Shown here piece by piece: positions 16,769 through 21,109 of a stretch of DNA of 32,403 bases; position 1 is the stretch's first letter; every line of letters starts with the position of its first letter. The stretch covers positions 1-32,403 of the forward strand of contig JAIYDW010000204.1 of NCBI GenBank assembly GCA_027487315.1. Reading direction: 5' to 3'. Position numbers and translations under genes: made by a program. The notes beneath the pieces were generated by a model. The model made no database searches, was not told where the DNA came from, and worked only from the letters and a program-made list of their open reading frames with translations. The DNA is from Verrucomicrobiaceae bacterium (GTDB taxonomy: Bacteria > Verrucomicrobiota > Verrucomicrobiia > Verrucomicrobiales > Verrucomicrobiaceae).

Positions 16769-19408
16769 TCATCGCAAGTTCACCCGCTCAGACTGCTTGG
16801 ATTCACCACTCGCCGAGATGGCTTCAAACGAGAGGCTCACTCCTTTCTCTCCAGCCTTCAGCGGCAGGCTGAACTCGAAAGGAAAAGAATCGTCGGCCAG
16901 CGTTTCATCGCGACCCGGAAGCGTGACGCCAAGCCGGGCAGTCTCCACCGTCTGTTCGTCGGCAGTCAGATAAGCATAGAGCCAGCTGAGCTCGGGACCA
17001 AAGGAGAGGATCATGGCCTGGGCTTCACCAAACGGAGTCTCGATGCGCTGATGCGAGATCGACTCGGCATCAACAAGTCCTGCAGTGAACTTGGGCTGGA
17101 AACGGGCCTGGATCCGAACGCCTTCGATGACCAGCGCGGTGATGCCTTTCGGGCTGAGTGAGATTCTGGCGGCACCATCGATCACGCTGAGCTTCGCAGC
17201 CTCGCGTTGGTTGTCACGCCACACGCTCGCGTTGTAGGTGCCTGCAGGGATGGCAAGCTTCACGCCAACATCGCGCAATTCACGGTCACATTCGTTCATG
17301 AAGGCGATGCAAAGCGTGTCTTCGCCACGGGCAGCGATGTGATTGACCTGCACATTGTCAGTGGTGACGAGGCCTTTGGGCATCCAGGGAGTCACGTCGC
17401 TTTGATCATAGAACTTCCCCGGTGCTCCATGCACGCCGCTTTGCAGGAAGGCATAACACTCAGCATACTCATGCGGGAAATCGATGGCACACTGCGAACG
17501 GTCGCGCACCTCCGCCATGAGGTAGTCCAGCACAAGGTTCGCCATCGGCAGGACGTGGTTGTAGTGGAAAGACGTGGTCGGCTTCAGCTCATCATGCGGA
17601 TGCAGCGGAAAATCCGCTTTCTCCTGCGCCGTCGAGTAGAGCGTGTTGAAGTGATAACCAGGAAAGTTGGCAAAGCGGCCAATCATCGCGCTGCGGGCGA
17701 TGTCGCGGAGGAAGGCGTCACCTGTGTCTTCGGCAATGCGGAGGAAGACCGGCGCATGCGTGGCAAAATAGAGGGCGATGCGCTGCACGGTACCGTTGCC
17801 TTCGCAGGTGAGTCCCTGCTCAGAGACGCGCCACGCGGGCACCGTTTCCTTGGCGGCACGAATCAGGCCGGGTTTGTCGAGCGAACCGCGACTTGGCGCA
17901 AACCCGCTCTCATTCACTGTGATATCAGCGTCAGGCACCGCGGGATAAAAGAAGATGAGCTGCGCATACAGCCGCGCTCCGCGATGCGCGGCAGCAAGAT
18001 GACGCGGCTCATGCGTGTCGCGATACAACTCATAAAAATCTTTCCATGCAGGCAGCATGTATTCGAAGAAGGTGCCATCAGCAGCCTCAGTAAAGTCGGT
18101 GGGCACTTTCGTAAGTTCCGGTTCAGCTTTGGCGATAGCGGTATCAAGCCACTTCCGCTCACCGGTCGCACGGTAGCGCCAAAGGTCATTTTGCCAGGCA
18201 TCGCCGCGGCTGACCCAAGTCATGTTCAAGGTGCGGTCCGTCGTTTGCAGACGCTGCATGGCCTGAAGGAAAACCGGGGCTACTCCGCCGCTCAGGCGAT
18301 GCAGCGCCGCCAGTTCAGAAAGTGGCATCGCCGGTCCAGCCATCCGTCGTGAGGGAGTCTGGCTACCCTTCAAACCTTCTTCATTCAGCGCAAAGAGGAA
18401 CTTCTCGCGGGAAAGCAGATACTCAAGAATCGGCACACCCTGCTCGCGGAACAGTCGCTCATTGTCCATGACAAAGGCCAGGCCAAGCGGATGCAGCGCA
18501 CTGACGTTTTTCACCGAACCATGGGAATCGGGATAAAAAAAAGCTTTGTTCGGCGGATCGAAGTTGCCCCAGGGGCCAAGCACCAAATCAAGCATGTTCT
18601 CCAGCGCAGTATTGAGCGATGTGAGCGTATTCTCACGCCTGTCCCGGAAGCCACAGACGTCCCCTGCGACCTGCTCAAAGGTCTCACTCAGCGGTTTCGA
18701 TTCTGCGACGAGCGCCAGCTCAAAACGGTGCTTCATCCCTGCCTCAAACCGCGATTCCTTCGAGCCAAGAAAGGGCGCGAAGACCATCGGCTGCGCATCG
18801 CCCTGCGCATTGCGCAAGGTGACACCGAAGCGCCGCGTTTGCGCAGTGGGCATCGCGTACGGAAATTGCTGCGGCTGAGCGAACACACCGAGCGTGCCAC
18901 CTCGGGTCTGCACGAGACATCCCGGAATCGAACAGATGTCATCGGGAATAAGAAAACTCTCCTCAGGCAAGCGCCGCCCATTCCACACCATCGGTTGAAA
19001 CAACTCGATTACGTCCACCATCGACGCAGCGGGTGCCCCGGCAAAGGCGACCGACCACATGCCCGGCTTCTTCGCCGTGAACGTGTAGCGCAATTTCCCT
19101 TTGGTGCGCTCTGCCTCAAGTTCGATCGCCTCATGCATGAATTTCCAGCGCGTCACCTCCCCGTGTTGTTCGATGCTCGGCTGCGTCAACCTGATGACCT
19201 CGCCCACTTTGAAAATGTCCCGTTCCATCGTCCCATTGCCGCGCTTCCAGCCAACAAGATTGTAAATCGGCTCCTTCCACTTCACCGGAGCGATGGCAAC
19301 CGGCTCCTGCGAGTGGATGGCGATGAACTCGGGGCGGAAGACATCGTCTGCGCTCAATGAGGCGAGCGGAACGAGGAAGAAGGTTGCGAGTGTGATGAGA
19401 TGTTTCAA
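16769..19408 (-). CDS. Large secreted protein of unknown function, TTG start
   Basis: An 879-residue exported protein (signal peptide [19 protein letters not shown]). No named family was recognised. The first ~250 residues look beta-rich (substrate-binding-like: [19 protein letters not shown]). The central ~260-660 is helical with paired aromatic and acidic residues ([39 protein letters not shown]), reminiscent of an (alpha/alpha) toroid of glycan-active enzymes. The C-terminal part is beta-rich again. The start is TTG: an in-frame TAG lies 5 codons upstream, no ATG precedes the signal peptide, and AGGGA lies about 9 nt before the TTG. Codon use has more G and T than the C-rich neighbours. 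A polysaccharide-processing role is inference. Confidence 0.7.
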
Positions 19409-19420
19409 AGTCTTGTTTCC

Positions 19421-19603
19421 CTAGCCTGACCTATTCATGAAAGTCGTGGCGAGACGCGGCGAAAGCCCGCAGTGGCTAGGCGGGCGCAGTTTTGAAAGGC
19501 TGAGTGCATTTGTAAATGCTCGATGCCTTTCAAAGCAAGCCCAACGCCGCCAATGCGGGCTTGCAGCCAGTCGTAGTAGAGTTTCATGAAAAGGTCAGGC
19601 TAG
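19421..19603. repeat. 183-bp near-palindromic element with 22-bp terminal inverted repeats
   Basis: The left end, 19421-19442 (starting CTAGCCTGACC, ending CATGAAA), matches the reverse complement of 19582-19603 at 21 of 22 positions. Inside, AAGCCCGCAGTGGC pairs with GCCAATGCGGGCTT, TTTGAAAGGC with GCCTTTCAAA, and GAGTGCATTT with AAATGCTC around the centre. The whole can fold as one long hairpin. It has no ORF, which fits a MITE-like or REP-like element or a structured transcript. It lies just upstream of the TTG-start gene and overlaps that gene's promoter region. Confidence 0.75.
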
Positions 19604-19625
19604 CTCAGACAGATGGCCCACCGGA

Positions 19626-19674
19626 AGAAAAATGACAGGGATTTAGCGCATTATCAGATCGTCTCGAAGAACCT
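19626..19674. repeat. Dispersed repeat family A, partial copy 3
   Basis: 49 bp alignable with the first 50 bp of copy 1 (7151-7200): AGAAAA, then ACAGGGATTTAGCGCA, CAGATC, TCTCGAAGAACCT. It diverges afterwards. Confidence 0.6.
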
Positions 19675-19804
19675 GGGGTGAAGATTTGGGAGCACCGATG
19701 ACTCTTCAACCACCCCACCCAAAAACACCCTCCGCCCGCTTTCAGCCCTCCGCCCCAATCTTCCCTGCAAACCCGCCCCCGTTTCCCACGTTATCCCCCA
19801 CGTC

Positions 19805-21109
19805 ATGAATACCCGCATCGAACGCCGCACCTTCCTCCGTGGAGTCGGAGCCACCCTCGCTCTCCCCTGGCTCGAAATCATGACCCCCGCCGCCCGCGCC
19901 GCGCAAAGGCAACTACCCCCGCGCCGCTTCGTCACCTTCTTCCAGCCCAACGGCGTCTTCCCCAAAGCCTGGGATGTCACCGGCGTCGGCAAAGACTTCT
20001 CCCTCTCTCCCATCCTTGAGCCCCTCGCCGCCTTCAAAAGCGACATGCTCGTCCTCAGTGGCCTCGACAGTTGCGGCAAAGGCCACGTCAAACTCACCGG
20101 CGCCTTCCTGACCGGCACCGCCATCGAAAACAACGTCAACGGCATCTCCGTCGATCAAATCATCGCCCGTCAAATCGGCCAAACCACCCGCTTCGCCAGC
20201 ATCGAACTCGGCACCGAACCTCCCCGCCAAGGCATGGCCGGCGACGACCCCATCGCCCTCGCCAACACCGTCTCCTGGAGCAGTCCCACCCAGCGCATCT
20301 CCCCCGAAATCAGCCCCCGCGCCGCTTTCGACCGCCTCTTCCGCGACCCCTCCTCCCCCGAAGCCCGCCGCGCCGCCGAAAACCGCCGCAGCGTCGTCGA
20401 CCTCGTCCTCGAAGACGCCAAAAACCTCCAACGCATCGCCAGCGGCCGCGACAAACAAAAAATCGACGAATACCTCGCCGGCGTCCGCGGCGTCGAACAG
20501 CAGATCGAGCGCACCCTCAATCCCCCCACCCCCGAGTGGACCCCGTTGTCTCCCCCGGACATGCGCCGCCCCCCCGCAGGCCTCCCCCTCAGCAAAGACG
20601 AGCACATGCGCCTCATGCTCGACCTCATCGTCCTCGCCCTCCAAACCGACACCACCCGCGTCGCCACCTTCATGAGCGCCCACGGCTTCAGCCGCCAAAA
20701 CTTCACCTTCCTCGACGGCGTCAAAAACGACCACCATGGCATGAGCCATCACAAAAATCAGGAAGCCCTAGTCAAAGAATACACCACCGTCAGCCGCTGG
20801 TATGCCCAGCAGGTCGAATATCTCCTCACCCAAATGCGCCGCATCGAAGAAGGCAACGGCTCCCTCCTCGACAACAGCCTCGTCCTCTACGGCAGCGAAA
20901 TGAAAGACGGCAACGGCCACATCAAAGAAGACCTCCCCCTCGTCCTCATCGGCAAATCCCAGGGCCACGCCAAAACCGGTCAACACCTCGCCTTCGCTCC
21001 CGGCACCCCCCTGGCCAACCTCCACCTCACCCTCGCCCAGCAATTCGGCGCCGAAATCGAGTCCTTCAACAACGTCAGCACCGGCACCCTCAACGGCCTC
21101 TTCGCGTAA
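19805..21109 (+). CDS. DUF1552 domain protein, Tat-exported
   Basis: A 434-residue DUF1552 protein. The N-terminus IERRTFLRGVGATLALPWLE is a twin-arginine signal and a hallmark opening of this family. Other family landmarks are VTFFQPNGVFPKAWDVTG, LSGLDSCGKGHVKLTGAFLTG, NGISVDQIIARQIG and the C-terminal NSLVLYGSEMKDGNGHIKED. The DUF1501 and DUF1552 families are related to alkaline-phosphatase/sulfatase-type folds, but no activity is known. DUF1552 genes usually accompany a DUF1592/DUF1587-type cytochrome protein; here the neighbour 93 bp downstream is instead of the DUF1549/DUF1553 class. No ribosome site is visible before the ATG. Confidence 0.93.
   Translation: MNTRIERRTFLRGVGATLALPWLEIMTPAARAAQRQLPPRRFVTFFQPNGVFPKAWDVTGVGKDFSLSPILEPLAAFKSDMLVLSGLDSCGKGHVKLTGAFLTGTAIENNVNGISVDQIIARQIGQTTRFASIELGTEPPRQGMAGDDPIALANTVSWSSPTQRISPEISPRAAFDRLFRDPSSPEARRAAENRRSVVDLVLEDAKNLQRIASGRDKQKIDEYLAGVRGVEQQIERTLNPPTPEWTPLSPPDMRRPPAGLPLSKDEHMRLMLDLIVLALQTDTTRVATFMSAHGFSRQNFTFLDGVKNDHHGMSHHKNQEALVKEYTTVSRWYAQQVEYLLTQMRRIEEGNGSLLDNSLVLYGSEMKDGNGHIKEDLPLVLIGKSQGHAKTGQHLAFAPGTPLANLHLTLAQQFGAEIESFNNVSTGTLNGLFA

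Follow-up and report, generated by a model that had tools for sequence, protein, structure and literature searches.

The 183-bp hairpin element at positions 19421 to 19603 of the window (the whole stretch of 32,403 nucleotides analysed here, from a Verrucomicrobiaceae bacterium) is a MITE of the IS1380 kind, an assignment that is well supported. We consider it very probable that the element was mobilised by an IS1380-family transposase and that its core folds as single-stranded RNA or single-stranded DNA (ssDNA); the partner and the function of this core are what we infer. MITEs are usually seen as remnants of insertion sequences (ISs) with idle interiors. Here, the interior is conserved and the ends appear exchangeable, so that one can ask directly how the core acts, and whether the ERIC elements of enterobacteria are of the same descent.

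A hairpin element and its copies

The near-perfect hairpin described in an earlier note on this DNA was confirmed. The terminal repeats match at 21 of 22 bases, inverted-repeat detection gives arms of 25 nt that are 92% complementary, and the segment 19400-19620 has a predicted fold of -112.6 kcal/mol. Dinucleotide shuffles average -70.85 (sd 4.94; z -8.45), and none of 200 is as stable. The element, its parts and its two neighbours are arranged as follows:

16769 to 19408, minus strand: neighbouring gene of 879 aa with a TTG start, 12 bp from the element; no Pfam match
19421 to 19603, plus strand: whole 183-bp element, including both 4-bp target copies (end match, copies, arms)
19421 to 19424, no strand: left copy of the presumed 4-bp target duplication, CTAG (copy comparison; YTAR duplications at IS1380 copies)
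19425 to 19442, plus strand: left terminal inverted repeat (TIR), starting CCTGACCTATTCATGAAA (end match; same end on an IS1380-family element)
19457 to 19572, plus strand: conserved structured core (limits from the Bacteroidota-only model, other ends; 65 bits, E 2.6e-12)
19478 to 19489, plus strand: 5' core motif AGGCGGGCGCAG (sequence and copy alignment)
19490 to 19535, plus strand: apical hairpin with a symmetric UGA/GAU internal loop (fold, covariation)
19536 to 19550, plus strand: 3' core motif CAAGCCCAACGCCGC with a bulged AAC (copy alignment, Bacteroidota model)
19582 to 19599, minus strand: right TIR (end match, arms)
19600 to 19603, no strand: right copy of the presumed 4-bp target duplication, CTAG (copy comparison; IS1380 YTAR duplications)
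19805 to 21109, plus strand: neighbouring DUF1552 (HXXSHH) gene, on the other side (gene list, Pfam)

The element thus lies between divergent genes, just upstream of the minus-strand gene. The TTG-start gene before which it had been placed is on the minus strand, 12 bp away; on the plus side, the gene that follows is the DUF1552 gene at 19805. As to an influence of the element on its minus-strand neighbour, we claim adjacency and nothing beyond it. Between 19805 and 29815, the window holds a cluster of DUF1552, PSCyt1/PSCyt2/PSD1, DUF1501, sulfatase and SASA-type genes. Such clusters are typical of Planctomycetes and Verrucomicrobia.

Further copies were searched for, as the earlier note had proposed. 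They are dispersed, as seen both by BLAST and with a covariance model that was built from them; at E <= 0.01 this model gives 23 places in the host genome (40 model rows, some places being matched on both strands). From five genomes, 54 full-length copies of 180-185 bp were collected. The possibility that the element is unique and not conserved in relatives is contradicted by these numbers. At E <= 0.001, 6 of the 57 genomes searched match the element, host included, and the same-genus genome G002 gave no match in this search. No match was found in plasmid and phage collections either.

The family is variable in length and arrangement. At one place (L061:1320-1681, G001:C55) two copies stand in tandem, with one 4-bp target copy common between them, where the orthologous place of the host genome G000 is occupied by one copy only. 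A 56-bp version (L027:1501-1556, G000:C76) retains little beyond the two ends and lies at the end of a short frame, which from its appearance may be RelE-like. Variants of 311-312 bp (L123:1853-2163, L122:2002-2313, L100:1464-1774) contain two additional modules, of ~62 and 66 bp, whose positions are fixed (near 57 and 149); these form small stable hairpins, one or both are missing elsewhere, and a similar first module is present in a second host subfamily (L395). Nesting of a second palindrome in the apical hairpin gives a 353-bp hairpin in L125:2076-2428. A 1024-bp variant (L145), which was considered and discarded, contains no long ORF.

Target sites and the probable mobilising transposase

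Target-site duplications, which remained to be looked for, were found as 4-bp YTAR sequences: identical outer 4-mers flank 23 of the 54 full-length copies and 12 of the 17 Bacteroidota copies with the same ends, 8 of them non-palindromic. Several copies have CTAG..CTAA instead of an exact 4-bp duplication. In L007:1501-1684 and other copies, targets expected to be CTAA..CTAA are often CTAG..CTAA, a change that looks like a correction of the inner base towards pairing with the other end; among the empty sites of the family, one reads CTAA. Empty sites could be compared with occupied ones. The host copy G000:C2:10400 reads GCCCG-CTAG[element]CTAA and two sister genomes read GCCCG-CTAA at this site. 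The copy G003:C151 is absent from G000 and G001, the empty site differing by a substitution and one base. For the window copy, no orthologous empty site was seen: the sister genomes align only rightwards of ~19760 or 19803, close to the ends of their contigs, and a search for the left gene gave nothing.

The same ends also enclose a transposase. In a Kiritimatiellae bin (L207:2765-4392) they lie 1628 bp apart, on either side of a 458-aa protein matching PF13701 with an E value of 2.6e-148; this Pfam domain, DDE_Tnp_1_4, is that of the IS1380 family. G014, a single-contig genome of the host's own family, contains five IS1380 copies with ends CCCGCATTTCTCATA (one with a single change). Their flanks are CTAG/CTAG, CTAA/CTAA, CTAG/CTAG, TTAG/TTAG and TTAG/CTAG, identical in four of the five, two of these four being non-palindromic. 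Scanning the named genomes with one end yielded at least 107 stretches in Verrucomicrobia, Bacteroidales, Lentisphaerae, Kiritimatiellaeota, Aminicenantes and others, and among the matches listed (these 107 and a viral one), 59 of 108 loci have a second end less than 4 kb from the first, the distance being 74-378 bp in nearly all of them.

We found no PF13701 match in the host genome, whose assembly is 98.67% complete in 256 contigs, and the mobiliser is therefore one that we infer. A missing partner is not a strict criterion, because the assembly may lack repeated IS copies, and because mobilisation in trans needs no present-day partner. On the likeness of ends and targets, the assignment of the mobiliser to the IS1380 class is well supported. 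Judging from the ends, duplications and empty sites, such a transposase recognises ends that begin with CC(T/C)G, inserts into YTAR with a preference for CTAG, and duplicates 4 bp; it would have moved the element in trans. Among the options that the earlier note had listed, the MITE is borne out by the copies, the TIRs, the duplicated target, the empty sites and the autonomous relative.

Other carriers of these ends, and other candidate partners, were encountered. The end pairs L245 and L282 were tried as transposase carriers and enclose no known transposase; two ORFs that we named IS4-like (L088, L089) were rejected as partners, being without these ends. In Bacteroidales KR5_bin-778, three loci (L203, L209, L223) have the same IS1380-type ends around interiors of CTCTGTG/CACAGAG repeats, unrelated to the core described below, and L192:821-1014 has the same ends around CCACGAAG-like repeats.

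Could a transposase of another class have moved the element? An IS630/Tc1-type MITE, duplicating TA only, would account without mutation for the CTAG..CTAA copies and for the empty site of G000:C2:10400. However, non-palindromic 4-bp duplications (TTAG..TTAG, CTAA..CTAA) are seen at MITE and IS1380 copies alike, and PF13358, looked for as the IS630 partner, was absent from G000 and present in 3 of 12 genomes searched; we hold this origin to be improbable. A REP-like origin, also listed in the earlier note, seems to us hardly credible; the element would then be of the REP/BIME or TIRYT kind and moved by a tyrosine transposase (RAYT). The element is indeed palindromic and dispersed, and REP families are reported in Verrucomicrobia in passages of PMC3733652, but its long matching TIRs, its YTAR duplication and the presence of the same ends around a DDE transposase speak against such an origin.

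The positions of the copies were also examined. Leaving out 12 of the 54 copies, which are orthologous repeats of a G000 copy, 42 non-orthologous loci were considered. Counting open frames of at least 150 codons, which are not gene calls, 16 of 84 ends fall exactly on the stop of such a frame (15 of 42 loci by longest frame), compared with 6 and 6 of 84 for the other two frames, and with 6.6% of control YTAR sites in the stop frame (n = 2094). Since YTAR contains TAA or TAG, the duplicated target restores the stop. Insertion at a stop codon would be tolerated in this way, the terminal TAR restoring the stop and the hairpin being left at the 3' end of the message. The window copy, between its divergent genes, is a different case.

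A structured core in different carriers

Folding and covariance analysis, the checks proposed at the outset, gave a fold far beyond chance and, in the alignment of the 54 copies, 24 of 52 pairs with two-sided changes, which amount to 246 cells where shuffles give 88 +/- 8. Pairing holds in 95.5% of the cells of this alignment, against 30-43% when it is slid.

Homology of the interior across phyla emerged only with covariance models; with nhmmer, essentially only the ends match outside Verrucomicrobiaceae. Three models were used: R1, the Verrucomicrobia model built from the copies, R2, built from 25 Bacteroidota core elements, and R3, the joint model. At E <= 1e-4, R1 matches 8 of the 15 named genomes, with 31 and 40 rows in two Marinilabilia salmonicolor genomes, 12 in another Marinilabilia, 8 in Anaerophaga, 49 in Draconibacterium, 4 in a Bacteroidia bin, and one match each in a Lentisphaerae bin and an Aminicenantes bin; at this threshold there is no match in the other 7 genomes, which also carry this end. 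Some of the Bacteroidota matches cover the core only and have other ends, Bacteroidota elements with other ends scoring 34-46 bits. R2 recognises the held-out window element with 65 bits (E 2.6e-12), and gives 61-72 bits to two further copies of the host (71.7 for L007); in the 259 kb tested, which contained hairpins with these same ends as well, its best match outside the core family and ERIC has 22.8 bits. It missed the host copies with other ends (L393, L394, L395, L397), to which R1 gives 51-118 bits. In the Bacteroidota family of R2 itself, 17 of 33 pairs covary. Local alignment of the window element with this family scores 37, where the shuffle maximum is 28 and 0 of 400 hairpin-preserving shuffles reach 37. 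With R3, there are matches to Kiritimatiellaeota elements (27 bits) and to one site of an Acidobacteriota bin (33 bits) as well, on weaker evidence.

Within the host genome, the core of ~115 nt is found inside hairpins with at least four different terminal repeats: besides the end of the window element, the other IS1380 end type (C129), a third end (C192, C151) and a fourth (C157). Judging from R1 and R2, which were built separately and recognise each other's elements, it is supported that the structured core changes carriers, and, as far as seen, the interior is not leftover transposase DNA. A folded centre common to mobile elements of distant bacteria suggests that the fold itself matters.

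Two-sided changes may nevertheless arise otherwise, by templated correction of quasi-palindromes, one arm being copied from the other in replication or repair, in an ordinary MITE with no functional core. This process would explain the CTAA targets turned CTAG..CTAA, whose inner base now pairs, and it agrees with the orthologous copies, among which all paired differences are one-sided, with no compensatory change. On the other hand, divergence between orthologous copies is generally lower than in the flanking DNA (46/2024 versus about 613/13032 sites; lower in 8 of 11 comparisons), and correction leaves unexplained the conservation of the core sequence across ends and phyla, the persistent unpaired loops and the consistent strand preference. 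We regard it as a possible but doubtful account.

The strand preference is seen in the predicted stability of the two strands when folded as RNA. With the core as the guide to orientation, the plus strand is favoured in 101 of 108 copies, and in 13 of 15 groups, which are of common ancestry and so not independent (53 of the 54 copies of A1 were used, one 180-bp copy being left out). In control hairpins with the same ends (n = 21), the strands are 3.3 kcal per 100 nt apart, with either one the more stable, versus mostly 5-15 for the core groups. Against the preference, strand-neutral Watson-Crick columns contain nearly even numbers of G-U and A-C cells (110 versus 95). In Verrucomicrobia, the difference does not come from more G-U pairs, and loop identity must therefore carry the gain. 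That the core may act as RNA or ssDNA receives moderate support from these computed folds. The module would be kept because one strand folds, either as RNA or as ssDNA during transposition or replication. One may go further, tentatively, and imagine that conservation and selection act on the module and not on the transposon. It would then be a mobile structured RNA or ssDNA, changing from one transposase to another and riding in MITEs with unrelated ends; its age or its mobility would be such that it reached Verrucomicrobiota, Bacteroidota, Lentisphaerae, Kiritimatiellaeota and Aminicenantes, and ERIC would form one more branch.

Other readings were also weighed. The structured regulatory RNA suggested by the earlier note is conceivable, the core being conserved, covarying and strand-biased in those 13 of 15 groups, but no Rfam family is reached: there are 0 matches at gathering score in the window, and the three weak ones at E <= 5 are far below that score, at chance level. 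A cis-regulatory RNA of the host, riboswitch- or leader-like, would be well placed 12 bp from the start codon of the neighbouring gene, and the fold is strong; yet the copies are dispersed at unrelated loci with target duplications and empty sites, and 19300-19830 contains no promoter or terminator consensus that we could find, all of which leaves this reading very improbable. As for coding capacity, the element was said to have no ORF, which is true of long ORFs. Its longest frames have 50 codons and are open from the ATG in each terminal repeat, on both strands; in the window element and its copies, the frames from the end ATGs have 50-55 codons and are open on both strands in most. Counting only ATG-bearing copies among the 54, frames of at least 45 codons are open in 34 of 48 (plus) and 39 of 44 (minus). 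These proportions would be in favour of a peptide of ~50 aa as the reason for the element's retention, and 42-codon frames of ERIC are discussed in a passage of PMC2759123. But such openness is reached by chance in 20% (plus) and 34% (minus) of hairpin-preserving shuffles of the window copy, both strands are open, variability by codon position is not coding-like, and in the 185-bp copies the plus frame is shifted by one inserted base. Frame openness and codon-position statistics thus do not support the peptide, which we believe to be a very unlikely cause of retention.

Relation to ERIC and other known elements

ERIC (RU-1) of enterobacteria is a 127-bp palindromic MITE, for which a consensus is published (PMC2759123, Table 1a). 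In reverse complement, this consensus resembles the element in that its two arms contain CAAGGCGGCAAG and GAGCGAACGCAGC, one each; it resembles the Bacteroidota core by CAGGAGCTTAC..GTAAGTGACTG. Seven of ten ERIC loci were retained, L400, L401 and L407 being omitted since they have the same neighbour genes as L399, L398 and L404; L405 and L406 have identical scores and may be one site. The Bacteroidota model R2 finds 5 of the 7 loci with 28-33 bits, at the right place and strand, and the joint model R3 finds 4 of 7, weakly (15-21 bits); R1, from Verrucomicrobia, finds 0 of 3. When six ERIC copies are aligned to the Bacteroidota family, 3-8 of 400 shuffles are as good for four of them, and 30 and 142 of 400 for the two others. 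The ends are unlike, TATACCC in ERIC and CTAG-CCTGACC in the window element. Taken as sequence comparisons, these results suggest that ERIC may be a distant relative of the core family, as a lead and not a demonstration.

We know of no target duplication made by REPs. The transposase of REP/BIME and TIRYT elements is of a different class, and their likeness to the element is that of palindromic dispersed repeats, often found downstream of genes (passages of PMC3733652). Among bacterial MITEs, Correia/NEMIS, RUP, Nezha, TIMEs and MITECca01 share with it a size of 70-300 bp, TIRs, dispersed copies, a hairpin and the lack of a transposase (parts of PMC3733652, PMC4133298 and PMC9769881); in those passages, none is derived from IS1380 and none has an interior common to different ends. 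In the literature searched, seen in part and with subscription papers outside it, we found neither an IS1380 MITE nor a core common to different ends described. The insertion sequences of the IS1380 family resemble the element by their ends, CC(T/C)G...TCAT, their YTAR target and the 4-bp duplication, the ends of L207 being practically identical. Unlike them, the window element has no transposase, and what it has in common with L207 is the ends only.
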